In this document: positions 4,988 to 20,999 of the stretch, piece after piece
Layout of the letters: each line of letters opens with the position of its first letter
Position numbering within the stretch: the stretch's first letter is position 1
Source of the DNA: a virus
Direction: 5' to 3' (one strand)
Length of the DNA: 29,812 nucleotides
IMG/VR virus record: IMGVR_UViG_3300044675_001586
Coordinates: 1-29,812 of that record
The notes under the pieces: model-generated
Seen by the model: only the letters and a program-made list of their open reading frames with translations
The model's database searches: none
Told to the model about the DNA's origin: nothing
Program-made: the position numbers and the translations under genes

Positions 4988-5635
4988 TTAGAATAGTTGT
5001 GTTTGTATAGTAGGGTTATAACTTGCATCGTATCTTTTATTTTCTCCTTTAGGGTATGAGTGAATTTTATATTTTAGATTTAATAAATATATTTTTTTCT
5101 CTTTTTTGTTTGCTATTATATAAACATATCTAAATTTCGGTAATTGTTTCTCCGTTTTAATTACTATACCTTTTTTATCAATATGTCTTCTCGTTTTTAC
5201 AATTTCGCCATTTTGTAAATAATATATTTTCTCTATTGAACTTAGTCCTGTATAAATCCAATTTGTAGCTTGATATATATACCCGTAGTGGTTCTGATTT
5301 TTGTCAGCATAGGAAACAATACACATTGGTTTAGGCAATATTTTCAATACGTTTGAAACAAAATAAGATAAAGCATTTTTATCTAAATTTTCTTCCACTA
5401 CTAATCTGTTCAATTCATAAACAATATGCTTATGTTCTTTTCCTAAAATGCCTTCACATAGTGTGTAACTTGCAGGTTTACCTATTGTTAAGCAACCAAC
5501 TAATATATTATTATAAAATAAACCAAAAGCATAAGATATACTTGGTATCCTTTTAGCATAATGCTTATGCAACAACCAATCATGTGTAATATAATTATCA
5601 ATACTTTTTACTTGATATTTATCTTTGACACTCAT
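4988..5635 (-). CDS. Mom-like DNA adenine modification protein (GNAT-like)
   Basis: The ATG at 5635 forms an ATGA overlap with the upstream gene, giving 215 aa; an ATG three codons earlier is less likely. The central part matches the phage Mom family: HYAKRIPSISYAFGL at about 25-39, LTIGKPAS at 49-56, YELNRL around Arg77, and SYAD around Asp111 followed by GYIYQATNWIYTG. Mu Mom converts adenine in phage DNA to a methylcarbamoyl derivative and so blocks many restriction enzymes. Residues beyond about 140 are Lys- and Tyr-rich and less recognisable. The gene is visibly more AT-rich than the structural genes. Host restriction evasion is the inferred role. Confidence 0.75.
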   Translation of the reverse strand: MSVKDKYQVKSIDNYITHDWLLHKHYAKRIPSISYAFGLFYNNILVGCLTIGKPASYTLCEGILGKEHKHIVYELNRLVVEENLDKNALSYFVSNVLKILPKPMCIVSYADKNQNHYGYIYQATNWIYTGLSSIEKIYYLQNGEIVKTRRHIDKKGIVIKTEKQLPKFRYVYIIANKKEKKIYLLNLKYKIHSYPKGENKRYDASYNPTIQTQLF

Positions 5636-5847
5636 AATGTACACGCTTGAATATAATGCTGCCTCTGGTGTTCGAACTCAATCTGCTGCCATCTGCACCC
5701 ATGAGTGTCGAGTAATGCTTCCCAGACATCTTCCCAATAGGATTTGTCTACACTATGCTGATGCAGTAGGCAGATAGCTGATTCGGCTGCGTTGAATGAC
5801 AGATTCATATAAATGTAAATCTGTTCTGCTTTTTCTTTTGGTGTCAT
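5632..5847 (-). CDS. Small conserved-looking phage protein
   Basis: The ATG at 5847 gives 71 aa beginning MTPKEKAEQIYIYM. A longer in-frame start at 5901 would overlap the upstream gene by 43 bp. Proteins with a TPKEKAxxL helix, a central stretch of small residues and an ending with YWxxVxxAL are common small phage genes of unknown function in Bacteroidota phages. Its stop overlaps the start of the Mom-like gene as ATGA, so translation is probably coupled. Confidence 0.6.
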   Translation of the reverse strand: MTPKEKAEQIYIYMNLSFNAAESAICLLHQHSVDKSYWEDVWEALLDTHGCRWQQIEFEHQRQHYIQACTL

Positions 5848-6053: not shown

Positions 6054-6169
6054 TTTAAGTTCAGTTTTAAGCAATGTGGACATAATGATTGTGTTTTAGT
6101 TGTGGCAGAAATGGTATAGTATTTACGGCAGGATTTACACTTAATCCAAAATGTGCGAATCAGTTTCAT
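6050..6169 (-). CDS. 39-aa zinc-ribbon protein (Com-like architecture)
   Basis: A very short gene. The ATG at 6169 overlaps the stop of the DnaA-C-like gene as ATGA, and its own stop overlaps the next ATG at 6053 in the same way, which strongly supports translation. The product has CKSC (Cys11, Cys14) and CPHC (Cys30, Cys33), a minimal zinc ribbon, with basic flanks. In phage Mu, the small zinc protein Com activates translation of mom. A Mom-like gene lies three genes downstream here, so a similar role is conceivable, but ribbon proteins of this size have many uses. Confidence 0.65.
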   Translation of the reverse strand: MKLIRTFWIKCKSCRKYYTISATTKTQSLCPHCLKLNLK

Positions 6170-6498
6170 AACCCGATGTTTTTCATGTGCATGGAAATCT
6201 CGTTGTCATTCTTTAAAGATAGCTGATCTTCAACACCACGAAGTGCATGGATGACTGTTGTGTGGTGCTTGATACCTGGGGAGAAGAATATACCGATATC
6301 TTTCAGCTTCCAATGGCATCTGTAATAAAGATAATAAGCCAATATGGAACGGATAACAACTATTTCCCTATCTCGCCTCCGTACACGCAAAGTCTTAATG
6401 TCGCAATTAAAGTAGGTCAAAACCCTTTGAATTACGTATTCAGATGTATTTAATCGTGCTGATTCACGGATGCCAGGTAGGACATAAGGGCTTACCAT
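6166..6498 (-). CDS. DnaA domain IV-like DNA-binding protein
   Basis: A 110-aa protein resembling only the C-terminal DNA-binding domain of the bacterial initiator DnaA. Residues about 33-94 hold the helix-turn-helix, with HHTTVIHAL at 78-86 in place of the DnaA signature DHTTVxHA. The preceding RDREIVVIRSILAYYLYY matches the helix that starts domain IV. There is no AAA+ ATPase domain. It could bind DnaA boxes in the host origin to hamper host replication, bind the phage origin, or act as a repressor. Start at 6498 overlaps the upstream 38-aa gene by 7 bp. Confidence 0.7.
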   Translation of the reverse strand: MVSPYVLPGIRESARLNTSEYVIQRVLTYFNCDIKTLRVRRRDREIVVIRSILAYYLYYRCHWKLKDIGIFFSPGIKHHTTVIHALRGVEDQLSLKNDNEISMHMKNIGL

Positions 6499-9597: not shown

Positions 9598-9861
9598 ATG
9601 AGTCAGTTATTTACAGGCAGCATCTGCGTTTCAGACATTGACAAGTCAAAGCTAACACAAGCCAAGAACGGCAAACTTTACCTATCCGTTGACATTTGGA
9701 TAAATGACCAAGCCGATAACTACGGAAACACTGGGTCAATCTCAATCCGTCAATCTAAGGAAGAAAGAGAGGCGAAGACCAAAAAGACCTATATTGGCAA
9801 TTTAAAACCCGTTGAAAAATCCAATAGCGCAGCACCTATAATGCAGGACTTACCTTTCTAA
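9598..9861 (+). CDS. SSB-like protein with conserved C-terminal tip
   Basis: An 87-aa protein. Residues 1-70 look like a small beta-barrel (FTGSICVSDI, YLSVDIWIND, TGSISIRQ, KTYIGNL), and the chain ends in an acidic-hydrophobic tip, MQDLPF, like the DDxPF tail that lets bacterial SSB bind partner proteins. It directly follows the exonuclease. Together this supports a single-strand DNA-binding protein of phage type; the OB-fold is inferred from the pattern, not from strong similarity. Confidence 0.6.
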   Translation: MSQLFTGSICVSDIDKSKLTQAKNGKLYLSVDIWINDQADNYGNTGSISIRQSKEEREAKTKKTYIGNLKPVEKSNSAAPIMQDLPF

Positions 9862-9922
9862 TGTTCAATCTGTGATTTACCCCTGGTGTGTCTACATCGG
9901 GGAATTTTTAAAACTTTAACTT

Positions 9923-10342
9923 ATGAGCAAAATACGATATAACGAAACCCATTACGATTGGTTTAAAGAGCAATATCCAAACGCTTGGAAAGATAATCTT
10001 TACTCACCTCCACCTATGCCGACTATCAGCAAGGCAAATGGTTTAACGAAGTATATCACAAACTTTTTATTCTGGAAAGGTCATAGAGCCACAAGGGTGA
10101 ATGTTCAAGGAAGAGTTGTAAAAGGCAAGTGGATTCCGTCAAGTACGAGGAAAGGCACGGCAGATATTTCAGCTACCATTAAAGGCAGATCAGTCATGAT
10201 AGAAATAAAATGCGGTGCTGATAAGGCACGACCCGAACAATTGCAAGAGCAGGAAAGGGAACGTAAAGCAGGCGGTATTTATGAATTCATCAGGACTGCT
10301 GATGAGTTTTTGGAACTTTATGATAAAATTGTAAATTTGTGA
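9923..10342 (+). CDS. VRR-NUC-like nuclease
   Basis: A 139-aa protein with a PD-(D/E)XK core in its C-terminal half: KGTADISATI (Asp81), VMIEIK (Glu94, Lys96), RPEQLQEQ (Gln106/108) and a GGIYEFIRT strand. This is the pattern of phage VRR-NUC proteins, which may resolve branched DNA. It lies between the SSB-like gene and the primase-helicase. The last codons carry the -7 element of a promoter for the downstream non-coding RNA candidate. Confidence 0.7.
   Translation: MSKIRYNETHYDWFKEQYPNAWKDNLYSPPPMPTISKANGLTKYITNFLFWKGHRATRVNVQGRVVKGKWIPSSTRKGTADISATIKGRSVMIEIKCGADKARPEQLQEQERERKAGGIYEFIRTADEFLELYDKIVNL
10309..10339 (+). promoter_or_regulatory. Consensus-like Bacteroidota promoter
   Basis: TTTG at 10309-10312, 19 bp, then TAAATTTG at 10332-10339. 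Both elements match the TTTG/TAnnTTTG consensus at the usual spacing. The predicted start near 10345 lies just after the nuclease stop codon and just before the structured RNA candidate. It is the best promoter match I found in the window. Confidence 0.65.
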
Positions 10343-10344
10343 TG

Positions 10345-10462
10345 TAAATGTCGCAGGTGAGATCGTGACATTAATCAGAAAATCATTTTAAAGCCTGAAG
10401 GGGCGATACTGCCGAATGTAAGTTCATTCGATCTCACCAGTGTCAAACCTTCAGGTTTTTTT
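10345..10462 (+). ncRNA. Candidate structured small RNA with pseudoknot
   Basis: About 118 nt with no plausible reading frame, between a strong promoter match and a terminator. Complementary segments: AATGTC 10347-10352 with GACATT 10367-10372; GGTGAGATCG 10356-10365 with CGATCTCACC 10429-10438; CGAATG 10413-10418 with CATTCG 10425-10430; and the terminator stem. The second stem begins in the loop of the first and crosses the terminator stem, giving a pseudoknot or alternative folds. It could act in trans, or as a 5' leader controlling the genes that follow. I do not recognise it as a known riboswitch or ribozyme. Confidence 0.6.
10391..10462 (+). terminator. Intrinsic terminator with large loop
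   Basis: CCTGAAGG (10394-10401) pairs exactly with CCTTCAGG (10448-10455), extendable to 11 bp with one G-T pair, followed directly by seven T (10456-10462). The loop of 46 nt is unusually long and holds its own hairpin (CGAATG/CATTCG) plus the segment that can pair upstream, so termination may depend on the fold. Confidence 0.65.
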
Positions 10463-10467
10463 ATTTT

Positions 10468-10752
10468 ATGGAGTTATATAAATTAGAAATTATTAATGGT
10501 GATTTTTCACGTACAATTTATGACGATAAGAAATTAAAGAAAAAATTGTACAAATTATGTAAAGTCATAACTACAAAGATTATTTACTATCACATAGAAG
10601 TAAATGGAGTTTTACATAATTTAATATTATTTAATTTACCTCATAGTAAAATTTGCTACATATCAGACAATGATGTTTTTACTGGTACTTCTATTGCTAC
10701 ATTTATGCATGACTTATACTTTGATGCCTTGATACATTTTAATATAGATTAA
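10468..10752 (+). CDS. Hypothetical protein upstream of primase-helicase
   Basis: A 94-aa protein with mixed beta strands and helices, AT-rich codons, and many Ile, Tyr and Lys. There is no membrane segment or known motif. It starts 5 bp after the T-run of the terminator, so its expression would depend on read-through or on a fold that prevents termination. Not recognised. Confidence 0.55.
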   Translation: MELYKLEIINGDFSRTIYDDKKLKKKLYKLCKVITTKIIYYHIEVNGVLHNLILFNLPHSKICYISDNDVFTGTSIATFMHDLYFDALIHFNID

Positions 10753-10774: not shown

Positions 10775-12892
10775 ATGCTTATTTCAACATATCGCAATGG
10801 ATTTGATGTCCAATCAATTGTCACAGAAGATATTTCAGCAATTTTATCGGGTATAAAAACAGGAAGGTGGCAGGATGAATGCCTACCTATTATGAATGAA
10901 CCTGATGAAAAGAAACGCAGGGAATTAAAAAAACACCTACCCAATTACACCATTTCTGGTAGGTTTGACAAAGGGAGAGCAGATAAAACACTTATTGAGC
11001 ATTCAAATTTGATTGGGATAGACTTTGACCATATTGAAAATGTCAATGGTTTGGTATCACAATTAAAATCTGATCCCTATACTTTTGCAGTTTTTAAATC
11101 CGTTTCTCATACTGGTGTTTGTGCAATCGTAAAAATTGATGGTAAAAAACACCTTGAGTCATTTAATGGACTTGGTCAATATTATTGGGATAAATATAGA
11201 GTAAATATTGACCCTACCTGCAAAAACATTTCAAGGATTAGGTATGTTTCATTTGACCCACACTTATTTGTAAATGAAAAATCCAAAGTATTTAAAACAT
11301 ATATACAAGAAAATAAAGTAAATAATGAGGAAAGGATACCACACTCAGATGCCAGGTTTGGATTTGTTTTAAACAATATAGAAAAAGCCGAAAAGGACAT
11401 AACTGGAAATTATGTTACATGGGTAAAATTAGGATTTGCAATTGCTCATCAATATGGTGAAAATGGATTGCCATTTTTTATGGCAATAAGTAAATATTCA
11501 GATCAATACACAGATCAAGAATGTACTGAACAGTATGATTTATGTTGCAGAAATGCAGCAGGAAGAGAAAAAATAGCAACAATAAAATCATTTTATAGCG
11601 AGGCTCTATTCCAAGGAATTGAAGTTTACACCGAGGATGAAAAAACAATGATGAAAGTTGCTGAGGTAGCAAAACTTACTGGATTGAGTTTAGACCAAGC
11701 AAAGAAAATGATTGAGGATGAGGGAGTTATACCTGATGATGCATTAGTTACTAAAGCATACGAACAAGCCAAAAAGGAAGAAAAGAAGTCAAATAAACTT
11801 GATATTGAAGCCGTTAAATTGTTTTTACGCAGATATCAAATCAAGAAAAATGAGGTTACAAGAAAGTACGAATGGAATGGTAATGAAATGAATATTGAAG
11901 ATTTCAATACTATATTTTTGGAAGCCAAAGAGAAATTTGAAAAGCTATCCAATGATATGTTTTTGAGTATAATATTCAGTCATTTTACACCTACATATAA
12001 TCCAATAAAAACATACTTTGATTCAATTGAGTGGGATGAGAAAGATAGGATAACCCCATTGGTTCAATCAATTAACTCTGATACTGGTGACTTTGATTAT
12101 AGGCTTATTGCAGTACAATCATGGCTTTTGGGAATCATTGAATCAATATATATAGACAATCCAAATATCTTACAATTGATATTTGCAGGAAAGCAAAACA
12201 CTGGTAAATCAGTATTTTTTAAGCAATTACTACCAAAGCAATTATCAAGGTATTTTGGTCTGTCACAATTGGATAATGGTAAGGATGACCAAATACTCAT
12301 GTGCGAAAAATTACTCATTCTTGATGATGAATATAGCGGTAAGGCTAAAGAGGATGCTAAACTAATTAAAAGGCTACTTTCAGCACCTCATTTTGATATC
12401 AGAGAGCCGTACGGCAGACAAAACGTCAAAATGAAACGTATAGCATCCCTTTGTGCCACTACCAATGAAACTAAAATACTTAATGATATTACAGGCAATC
12501 GCAGAATACTTGTATTAGAGGTTATTGGAAAATTTGATTATGAACTATATAATAGTATAGATAAAGAGCAGCTTTTTGGTCAATTGTACGATATGCACAA
12601 AAAAGGCTATGAAGCGCAGCTTACTGATAAAATGATTGACTTAATGAAAGAGTATACCCATGCAAGGAATTCTGAACCATCAGTTGAAGAAGAGTGCTTG
12701 GAAAAATTGTTTCACAATCCAACAATTCATGATGGTTATAGCTATTTAACAAATACGGAAATAGTCTCAATCATAATGGATAAAATGAAATTGAGAGTAG
12801 GATCAAAGAAACTTGGAATCGTATTAAAAGAAGTTGGCTATGAGCAAAAAAAGAAAAATGGTGTACAAAAATACCAAATTATGCCAAAATAG
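10775..12892 (+). CDS. Primase-helicase, VirE_N / PriCT / VirE type
   Basis: A 705-aa protein with three regions. Residues about 50-165 match the VirE N-terminal (BT4734-like) primase domain: GIDFDHIE supplies Asp83 and Asp85, and SVSHTG supplies His112, the DxD and SxH motifs of archaeo-eukaryotic primases. Residues about 205-275 resemble PriCT_2. Residues about 395-585 are an SF3/VirE-type ATPase with Walker A GKQNTGKS (472-479), Walker B LLILDDEY, sensor ATTNE and arginine pair GNRR. It would unwind and prime phage DNA. No DNA polymerase is present, so host polymerase is presumably recruited. Its stop codon touches the repeat array of the putative origin. Confidence 0.85.
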   Translation: MLISTYRNGFDVQSIVTEDISAILSGIKTGRWQDECLPIMNEPDEKKRRELKKHLPNYTISGRFDKGRADKTLIEHSNLIGIDFDHIENVNGLVSQLKSDPYTFAVFKSVSHTGVCAIVKIDGKKHLESFNGLGQYYWDKYRVNIDPTCKNISRIRYVSFDPHLFVNEKSKVFKTYIQENKVNNEERIPHSDARFGFVLNNIEKAEKDITGNYVTWVKLGFAIAHQYGENGLPFFMAISKYSDQYTDQECTEQYDLCCRNAAGREKIATIKSFYSEALFQGIEVYTEDEKTMMKVAEVAKLTGLSLDQAKKMIEDEGVIPDDALVTKAYEQAKKEEKKSNKLDIEAVKLFLRRYQIKKNEVTRKYEWNGNEMNIEDFNTIFLEAKEKFEKLSNDMFLSIIFSHFTPTYNPIKTYFDSIEWDEKDRITPLVQSINSDTGDFDYRLIAVQSWLLGIIESIYIDNPNILQLIFAGKQNTGKSVFFKQLLPKQLSRYFGLSQLDNGKDDQILMCEKLLILDDEYSGKAKEDAKLIKRLLSAPHFDIREPYGRQNVKMKRIASLCATTNETKILNDITGNRRILVLEVIGKFDYELYNSIDKEQLFGQLYDMHKKGYEAQLTDKMIDLMKEYTHARNSEPSVEEECLEKLFHNPTIHDGYSYLTNTEIVSIIMDKMKLRVGSKKLGIVLKEVGYEQKKKNGVQKYQIMPK

Positions 12893-12939
12893 GGTAGGTT
12901 GGGCAACTTCGGGTAACTTGTAAATTGACGAAGTTACCC
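12892..12939. repeat. Left iteron cluster
   Basis: GGGTAGGTT (12892), GGGCAACTT (12901) and GGGTAACTT (12911) in one direction, then AAGTTACCC (12931) in the other. The last two form a 9-bp inverted repeat with an 11-nt gap. The first copy begins on the last base of the primase-helicase stop codon. Confidence 0.85.
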
Positions 12940-12977
12940 TACTCAAACTCAATGTAGATAAGGCTTTCAGCGTATTA

Positions 12978-12995
12978 GGGTAACTTGGGTAAGAT
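12978..12995 (+). repeat. Middle iteron pair
   Basis: GGGTAACTT at 12978 followed in tandem by the degenerate GGGTAAGAT at 12987, at the left edge of the AT-rich core. Confidence 0.7.
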
Positions 12996-13082
12996 AAATT
13001 CCTATAAAAGGTTATAGAATATTATATTATAGAGAGTATATATAACGCGTGATTTTTATAGCACTTCATAGAACCGCATTTG

Positions 13083-13109
13083 AAGTTGCCCAAGTTACCC
13101 AAGTTACCC
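13083..13109 (-). repeat. Right iteron cluster, three tandem copies
   Basis: AAGTTGCCC, AAGTTACCC and AAGTTACCC follow each other with an exact 9-bp period, the reverse complement of the left cluster type. Confidence 0.9.
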
Positions 13110-13146
13110 TACAAAAAATATTTCGCCATAAATATCTAAATCTGAT

Positions 13147-13154
13147 TAATTTTG
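13147..13154 (+). promoter_or_regulatory. Possible -7 element for the late operon
   Basis: TAATTTTG fits TAnnTTTG and lies 5 bp before the ATG at 13160, so a transcript from it would be almost leaderless. No TTG lies at the right distance upstream. It may be a chance match; if real, the iteron array just upstream could control it. Confidence 0.3.
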
Positions 13155-13159
13155 TTTAA

Positions 13160-19470: not shown

Positions 19471-20028
19471 ATGAATACTATACTACTAACTACACACGAT
19501 TCACCAAGAACAGAAGGGGCATACAACCATCTACTATCTCATGGTTTTGATGCTGATATATTTTACGCTATAAAGAATGATGATGCGAAAACATCATTCA
19601 ACTTATCAATGCAGCACATCACTTCACAAAGTGATGGTATTTTATGGTTCTTTGAAGATGATGTTTATTTGAAGGATTCAGCACATTTGCACGATGCAAT
19701 AAATCAAATGCCAAGTGATTGGGATATGCTCTATCTTGGAGCAAATCTTGTTGCACCAATACAAAGGCATTCTGATAATCTATTCCGCACGTTTGGAGCA
19801 TGGACAACTCACGCAGTATGCTTTAATAACGCTAAAGCACTCTGTGAGGCGTACCAAGACACTACACAGATGTTTGATGATTGGCTCAAGGATAATATAC
19901 ACCCAAGAGGTAAAAGCTACATCGTTTCACCTATGATTGCGTGGCAAAAACCACATGAATCACCACTTTGGAATCACTATGCTGATTATACCGATATATT
20001 TAACGCATCAGCAAATAAAATACTATGA
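19471..20028 (+). CDS. Glycosyltransferase, GT25-like
   Basis: A 185-aa protein that begins ILLTTHDSPR and contains LWFFEDDVYL (acidic metal-binding triad Glu62-Asp63-Asp64), DWDMLYLGAN and GAWTTHAVCFN, the pattern of GT-A fold enzymes related to LPS glycosyltransferase family 25. It would move a sugar from a nucleotide donor to a protein or glycan. It starts directly after the capsid terminator and overlaps a second glycosyltransferase by 4 bp (ATGA). Being in the head module, it may glycosylate virion proteins; altering host surface glycans is the alternative. No membrane segment. Confidence 0.75.
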   Translation: MNTILLTTHDSPRTEGAYNHLLSHGFDADIFYAIKNDDAKTSFNLSMQHITSQSDGILWFFEDDVYLKDSAHLHDAINQMPSDWDMLYLGANLVAPIQRHSDNLFRTFGAWTTHAVCFNNAKALCEAYQDTTQMFDDWLKDNIHPRGKSYIVSPMIAWQKPHESPLWNHYADYTDIFNASANKIL

Positions 20029-20999
20029 ATATACTCGCATCCATTCATTTATACCCACCTCAACACAATTGCGGTGCTGAATATATGTTGCATGGAATAC
20101 TAAAGCACTTACAATCAGAAGGACACCATATTAAAATATTACTACATCAAGCCAACCACTACAAAATAACCAACAATTATGTTTTCGATGGTATTGATGT
20201 ATTCCCACCGAATTCAAATGTCATTGAAGGACTAATGAGATGGTCAGATGTAGTATTCACCCACTTGGATTATACAAGGTGGACAATTCACACCGCTAAA
20301 CTTTATCGAAAACCAGTATTTCACCTTATTCATAATTCTCATCCGTACCCTGAAATTATTGATGCTGAGAATAAACAACATATCATTTATAATTCTTTTT
20401 GGCTAAAATCCTTATTGAACTACAATTTCCCTAATTTTGTATTAACCCCTCCTTGCGACTATCGTTATTACGATACTAATACTGACACTTCCAAGAATAC
20501 TTACATTACACTAATTAACTTAAACGAGAACAAAGGGGGTAAGGTCTTTGCAGATATTGCCCGTGCGATGCCACATAAACGATTTTTAGGTGTTCTTGGT
20601 TCATACGATGAACAAGTAACCGAAAATCTGCCAAATGTGGTATATGTGAAAAATAATCCGAACATACTTGAGACTTACAAACAGACTCGTATTTTACTTA
20701 TGCCATCAAACTATGAATCATGGGGAAGAACGGCAACGGAGGCAATGTCAAGCGGTATTCCTGTGATTTGTACTGAGGCAGATGGTTTAAAGGAAAACTG
20801 CGGTAAAGCAGGTATTTACATTAAAAACAGAACCGATGTTAAGGAATGGGTCAGAAGAATTACTGAACTTGATGAAGAAAAAGCCTATCAAGGAGCATCA
20901 AGAAAAGCAAAAGCAAGAAGCAGAGAACACGATCCGAGAGAAGCACTTAGTCAATTCTCAACTTGGTTCAAAGAAAAAGCATACGAATGGTATACATAA
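20025..20999 (+). CDS. Glycosyltransferase, GT4-like (GT-B fold)
   Basis: A 324-aa enzyme. The N-terminal half has the acceptor-domain start MNILASIHLYPP..CGAEYMLHG, where GAE resembles the GGAE motif of GT4 proteins. The C-terminal donor half has LINLNENKGG, VLGSYDE and the EX7E motif in ESWGRTATEAMSSGIPVI (Glu231, Glu239). These enzymes are cytoplasmic and retaining. Coupled translation with the GT25-like gene suggests sequential sugar additions on one substrate. It overlaps the connector gene downstream by 13 bp, so the pair is embedded in the late operon, not a loose insertion. Confidence 0.8.
   Translation: MNILASIHLYPPQHNCGAEYMLHGILKHLQSEGHHIKILLHQANHYKITNNYVFDGIDVFPPNSNVIEGLMRWSDVVFTHLDYTRWTIHTAKLYRKPVFHLIHNSHPYPEIIDAENKQHIIYNSFWLKSLLNYNFPNFVLTPPCDYRYYDTNTDTSKNTYITLINLNENKGGKVFADIARAMPHKRFLGVLGSYDEQVTENLPNVVYVKNNPNILETYKQTRILLMPSNYESWGRTATEAMSSGIPVICTEADGLKENCGKAGIYIKNRTDVKEWVRRITELDEEKAYQGASRKAKARSREHDPREALSQFSTWFKEKAYEWYT

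Follow-up and report, generated by a model that had tools for sequence, protein, structure and literature searches.

The window, the whole 29.8-kb virus record analysed here (29,812 nucleotides, with capsid, terminase and VapE-type primase-helicase genes), contains what is almost certainly a real RNA element of Bacteroidetes phages, uncatalogued and conserved in structure. How it acts is less certain; the reading that we prefer, with a probability of roughly 0.55, is a cis-acting, pseudoknotted terminator leader (an attenuator) gating the next gene. The element and its surroundings comprise the following features, where PK denotes the pseudoknot:

9923–10342, + strand: upstream endonuclease or Holliday-resolvase-like gene (VRR-NUC-type), weak PHROGs matches; used to gather relatives
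10309–10312, + strand: −33 box TTTG, read in the sequence, 19 nt ahead of the −7 box and inside the end of the upstream gene
10332–10339, + strand: −7 box TAAATTTG, identically placed in relatives whose RNA sequence is unrelated
10347–10354 with 10365–10372, + strand: P1 hairpin, 8 bp with a 10-nt loop AGGTGAGATC; in the minimum free energy fold, with covariation
10356–10364, + strand: PK 5′ strand GGTGAGATC, in the P1 loop; covariation of PK alone
10373–10389, + strand: A/T-rich linker between P1 and P2; an A-rich linker of 9–31 nt in members
10390–10401, + strand: P2 5′ arm AAAGCCTGAAGG, with its complement CCTTCAGGTTTT at 10448–10459; minimum free energy fold and covariation
10393–10404, + strand: P2a, alternative hairpin GCCT-GAAG-GGGC within the P2 5′ arm, excluding P2 while formed
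10405–10410 with 10439–10444, + strand: P2b, 5′ arm GATACT with AGTGTC; minimum free energy fold, covarying helix 4
10414–10418 with 10425–10429, + strand: P3 hairpin GAATG/CATTC; in the minimum free energy fold, with covariation
10430–10438, + strand: PK 3′ strand GATCTCACC, between P3 and the P2b 3′ arm
10448–10462, + strand: P2 3′ arm and U tract (T7 at 10456–10462), predicted intrinsic terminator
10468–10752, + strand: first downstream gene, 94 amino acids, no assigned function; start codon 8 nt after the stem
10775–12892, + strand: primase-helicase (BT4734-like_N, PriCT_2, VapE-like; Pfam, PHROGs)

A first-pass annotation had described a segment of about 118 nt with four complementary pairs and a terminator with seven T, and everything it listed is found in place. 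The two long pairings that it called interleaved can be read directly: GGTGAGATCG (10356–10365) is complementary to CGATCTCACC (10429–10438), and the P2 pairing is slightly wider than it had proposed. Folding of 10345–10466 yields −39.8 kcal/mol (z −5.4), with 0 of 200 shuffles as good. The minimum free energy structure contains P1, P2, P2b and P3 and leaves the strand GATCTCA... (10431–10437) unpaired; its complement is the P1 loop, with which it forms the PK. If G10365 is assigned to P1, the 8 bp of P1 and the 9 bp of the PK (10356–10364 with 10430–10438) have no base in common. In the window a single unpaired A precedes the PK 5′ strand in the loop and no nucleotide follows it, the geometry of an H-type pseudoknot, in which a strand further downstream pairs with the first stem's loop, loop 1 is short and there is little or no loop 2. 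Flanks of 0–2 nt before and 0–1 nt, usually 0, after the strand are found in 25 of 31 members, a geometry that the descriptor scan described below does not impose.

The PK and P2 are also without a common nucleotide, and are therefore interleaved rather than mutually exclusive by sequence; this and the H-type geometry make it probable that they can coexist. The suggestion that the two long pairings form a pseudoknot or compete is borne out in its first part, by covariation; the second part is not supported. The competitor that we did find for P2 is the small hairpin P2a inside its 5′ arm, in the form of the element that we call subtype I. This arm is more self-complementary than its shuffles (p ≤ 0.034) in 10 of the 12 subtype-I members; for the window arm a 14-nt cut gives p = 0.10, and the same arm in locus L085, in a fuller register, p = 0.008. 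A P2a-like hairpin was not seen in the subtypes other than I. P2 itself encloses 46 nt, which exceeds the loop of a textbook terminator.

Relatives were gathered with the upstream gene, giving 80 viral loci, and with a piece of P2, giving six more. In many loci the parts follow the upstream gene in an unchanged order but in different letters; many others have no element there (L011, L015, L024 and L032 among them), so the element is dispensable. A descriptor consisting of promoter, P1, loop-to-P2 pairing, P2, U-rich segment and ATG gave 37 matches scoring at least 55 in 680 kb of related loci and none in their shuffles, with the window highest of all (70). The same descriptor found one match of at least 55 (57.0) in 324 kb of Bacteroidota genome pieces, and reached 55.5 at best in five shuffles of one phage genome. 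In searches by sequence, blastn of the window element against 50,697 phage records gave nothing beyond a chance match of 25 nt, the upstream gene had no tblastn match in phages, and a scan with the pattern ATGAMGTGAAACCCAT added one new member only (L119). The family is missed by such searches because its letters change and only the shape stays.

The element occurs in three forms. Subtype I (the window, L002, L010 and others) has P2, P2b and P3, with the PK strand between P3 and the P2b 3′ arm. In subtype II (L031, L059 and others), a 7-nt segment has its full complement in a second one, which lies in a hairpin loop, as in a loop-loop kiss. Simpler forms (L064, L115 and Bacteroides phage B40-8) have the PK strand in or beside the P2 loop.

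In alignment A4 (8 sequences), 97% of cells are paired and 22 of 36 pairs have two-sided changes, a result that none of 500 shuffles equals. MAFFT misaligns P1 when given all members, and models were therefore seeded with 8 well-aligned members. Model R1, built from A4 without the PK, aligned 16 members (A7): 98% of cells are paired, two-sided changes are seen in 33 of 36 pairs, 0 of 500 shuffles do as well and slid controls stay at or below 50%. A7 has a covariation score of 0.825; shuffles score 0.246 and slid controls no more than 0.184. Two-sided changes affect all six modelled pairs of P1, with 99% of its cells paired, and all seven of P3; G-U pairs are tolerated on the sense strand. Alignment by a model favours the helices that the model contains; this bias does not extend to the PK, which was absent from the aligning model. 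In the 16 relatives, the PK alone has 100% of cells paired and two-sided changes in 7 of 8 pairs, with slid controls at or below 50%.

Model R2 was seeded without the window (one seed, L085, has the P2 sequence of the window) and detects it with a score of 55.6 bits (E = 7e-9). For 24 distinct PKs, the pairing run with the own partner has a mean of 7.5, against 3.6 with foreign partners; as members were partly selected by complementarity, the covariation of A7 and of the PK alone weighs more than this comparison. The first-pass annotation had proposed a covariance search as the check on its pairings, and the outcome is decisive: homologous intergenic regions keep the pairing in A4, A7, the PK and R2. 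Comparison among relatives shows the helices P1, PK, P2, P2b and P3, along with the U tract, a promoter sequence and a location ahead of genes, and the structure is well supported by it. The RNA had also been called unrecognised, and so it is: none of the 4227 families of Rfam 15 matches the window or 18 related loci at gathering score, and a low threshold brings only chance matches, the best (E 0.3) to an unrelated sRNA. Literature searches found no such element in phages.

The Bacteroidetes promoter consensus is TTTG/TANNTTTG (PMC6847099), and the promoter match noted earlier, TTTG-N19-TAAATTTG, reads at 10309–10312 and 10332–10339, the −7 box overlapping the last codons of the upstream endonuclease-like gene. 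The −33 box is the weak part and is not clearly present in every relative. In Flavobacterium the −7 box spans −12 to −5 relative to the start (PMC9723704), a measured spacing that places the predicted start near 10344; in the Flavobacterium phages mumin and lillamy the predicted 5′ end would lie about 5 nt behind TATATTTG. TAnnTTTG-like boxes, putative promoters to judge by their letters, precede nearly all members in the same direction, and P1 begins a few nucleotides from the predicted start in most of them. Other TAnnTTTG boxes of the window, at 1824, 7109 and 13147, have a gene close behind and no such leader, so the leader is particular to the replication unit. No antisense TAnnTTTG box was found near the element, and no separate promoter was seen in the stretch from the element to the next gene.

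The 8 nt behind P2 contain a mean of 6.5 T over the 31 members, against 2.2 at −13 to −6 before the ATG of 96 other open reading frames; in a few members the U tract is imperfect. A covarying stem with a T-rich tail thus stands ahead of the first gene, as expected of a terminator in sequence and structure. From P2 to the next open-frame ATG there are 6–23 nt in the 31 loci (6–19 in 30 of them, mostly 6–14). Given the T content and the short distance, stem and tail look like a terminator from which read-through would reach the next start at once. The genes that follow are unrelated among loci: primases (VapE, DUF3987, DnaG/Toprim), Lin1244_N replication proteins, a ResIII helicase, HNH and GIY-YIG endonucleases, small unknown proteins and, in L062 and L063, the endonuclease-like gene itself. 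Most are primases, replication initiators, a helicase or homing-type endonucleases.

Homing-type endonuclease genes (HNH, GIY-YIG) lie directly behind the element in L146 (11666–11764), L058 (3486–3580) and L060 (3604–3903). The element may be a preferred insertion place of such genes, or may travel with them. A consensus scan of the window also met a plain terminator-like hairpin with a T tail at 9881–9902, between a gene ending at 9861 and the one starting at 9923.

Isolated phages carry the element as well: Flavobacterium phages mumin, hemulen, lillamy and 11b, and Bacteroides phage B40-8. The genome of mumin6-1 has two. Element A (12714–12808) is followed by a small gene and then by helicase and primase, and element B (about 11666–11764) lies ahead of an annotated endonuclease; their PKs differ and have no common pairing sequence. 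Element A matches 46 records of related Flavobacterium phages. The PK reads GTGGAACG/CGTTCCAC in mumin and GTGAGACG/CGTCTCAC in hemulen and lillamy, a difference of two compensatory changes within conserved DNA; the latter two phages keep the element, but directly behind the U tract another gene has taken the place of the downstream one. Their next ATG is about 45 nt off, and close fusion to a start codon is therefore not obligatory. The simpler form is found in Flavobacterium phage 11b (33634–33718) and in Bacteroides phages B40-8, where it precedes a Rha gene, and BF702P1; BF766P1 has lost one PK pair. With this descriptor, no convincing element was seen in Cellulophaga phages phi46:1, phi12:1 and phi38:1 (first 50 kb), Nonlabens phage P12024S or the first half of crAss001. 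Nor did R2 find a convincing copy in 395 genomes of one class of Bacteroidota; its two matches, in one of these genomes, are ordinary terminators without P1 and PK. R2 detects subtype I only, so this null result says nothing on the other forms.

From the structure and the position, we infer transcription, termination, read-through and a regulatory role as follows. Positions 10332–10467 would be the promoter and structured 5′ leader of the replication operon. Transcription would start near 10344 and P1 would fold first, followed by P2a in the P2 5′ arm and then by P3. The emerging PK strand would pair with the P1 loop, as an H-type pseudoknot in the subtype of the window and as a 7-nt loop-loop kiss in another. 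P2b and P2 would form last; P2a would have to open, and P2 would close around P2b and P3. P2 and the U tract would end most transcripts at about 10460–10466, leaving a pseudoknotted RNA of about 120 nt, and transcripts reading through would go on to include the adjacent start codon and the primase. Folding kinetics probably govern the gate, with P2a forming first and the PK fixing the strand beside P2b, and the outcome would depend on P2 forming in time, before the polymerase has moved off the U tract.

We do not claim the PK as an antiterminator; PK and P2 can probably coexist. As they have no common nucleotide, the structure alone does not prove a switch. A switch controlling read-through into the primase operon, as proposed in the first-pass annotation, is made plausible by the next ATG lying a few nucleotides behind the stem in most relatives and by the predominance of replication genes downstream.

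IsrK of the Salmonella prophage Gifsy-1 ends at a terminator or is read through into phage genes (PMC4825925). It resembles the present element in being a phage RNA with its own promoter and with short and long isoforms, made by termination or downstream read-through; its sequence, structure and host are different, and it acts in trans on its long isoform (PMC4825925). It is the nearest functional precedent in the literature consulted. To our knowledge, IsrK has no pseudoknot into its terminator. The alpha (primase) operon of the enterobacterial satellite phage P4 likewise has a structured leader ahead of a primase-helicase gene and control by premature termination, but is not known to have an H-type pseudoknot in the terminator; the CI RNA is processed from this leader and pairs with separate target sites. 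The leader pseudoknot of T4 gene 32, which binds gp32 and controls translation, is likewise of the H type and lies near the 5′ end of the mRNA for a phage replication gene, but is not known to form part of a terminator. Plasmid replication leaders, controlled by antisense RNA, offer a hairpin loop paired with a distant strand in the IncI-alpha/IncB rep activator pseudoknot, and kissing loops in ColE1 RNAI/RNAII, which the fully paired 7-nt loops of L031 and L059 resemble. In contrast, the partner in the phage element is in the same RNA, and there is no antisense TAnnTTTG box nearby.

The promoter sequence, compact conserved fold and U tract would also suit an independent gene for a stable small RNA of about 120 nt, acting in trans on host or phage RNA or protein, with the next gene merely packed behind it. 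Its retention in lillamy and hemulen, despite the replaced neighbour, favours this reading, which we nevertheless consider doubtful. By inspection across the members, no accessible seed is conserved, and only the A-rich linker is conserved and unpaired; PKs differ among phages and between the two elements of one genome. A trans-acting sRNA in general, the other role suggested in the first-pass annotation, is thus possible but unsupported. The usual 6–14 nt to the next ATG also argue against an independent gene, and even then the next gene would need read-through, as no separate promoter is seen in between. The closeness of P1 to the predicted start in most members, and of the start codon to P2, could instead point to a 5′-end mRNA stabiliser or a control of translation, as in T4 gene 32, with stem and U tract not a working terminator. 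Translation initiation in Flavobacterium is indeed tuned by structure near the start (PMC6847099). We think this unlikely, given the excess of T directly behind the stem and the distant start codon of lillamy.

More improbable still is self-recognition in trans, in which a terminated RNA, through its P1 loop or PK strand, would make a kissing contact with the nascent leader from a second copy of the same phage and so alter termination there. Phage P4, prophage IsrK and plasmid control are parallels. Each loop has its complement within the same RNA, and the loops diverge among phages as specificity loops do; IsrK is a precedent in which the short, terminated RNA acts on the read-through form of the same transcript (PMC4825925). 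However, intramolecular pairing would compete, no second target was found and the two elements of one genome do not match. P2 alone would pass for an ordinary terminator, but chance complementarity beside it, or a palindrome at the DNA level, is hardly credible given compensatory changes in all helices, the PK included, and the failure of shuffles; the sense-strand G-U pairs and the PK covariation rule out the palindrome. A riboswitch was rejected for lack of conserved core nucleotides, and a type III toxin-antitoxin RNA because the element is single-copy, without tandem repeats or toxin, and is followed by replication or endonuclease genes. A packaging RNA was rejected because position and gene order vary.

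Structure thus reveals a family that spans environmental phage contigs and phage isolates of Flavobacterium and Bacteroides, and the isolates make it testable at once. If the terminator leader does gate replication genes, it would be a general control point in phages of a main gut and fresh-water phylum, the Bacteroidetes, in which phage RNA regulation is little known, and a compact portable leader for genetic tools in these bacteria. If self-recognition were true, the fast-changing loops would define RNA-based copy-control or immunity groups among Bacteroidetes phages.

Elsewhere in the window, the non-coding stretch between the primase and terminase genes (12893–13159) contains the repeated GGGTAACTTG, an RNA fold with z −4.6 and inverted repeats at 12976–12992/13095–13111 (17 nt, 100%) and 12887–12910/13082–13105 (24 nt, 83%); judged by its sequence, it is a candidate origin or regulatory region. 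A Mom family DNA-modification protein is encoded at 4988–5644 on the − strand (Pfam E 1e-31; PHROG Mom-like), and the phage DNA may therefore be modified. Also on the − strand, 6166–6498 encodes a protein with a DnaA C-terminal helix-turn-helix domain. A Group-1 (GT4-type) glycosyltransferase gene lies at 20025–20999 on the + strand, between capsid and head-tail genes.
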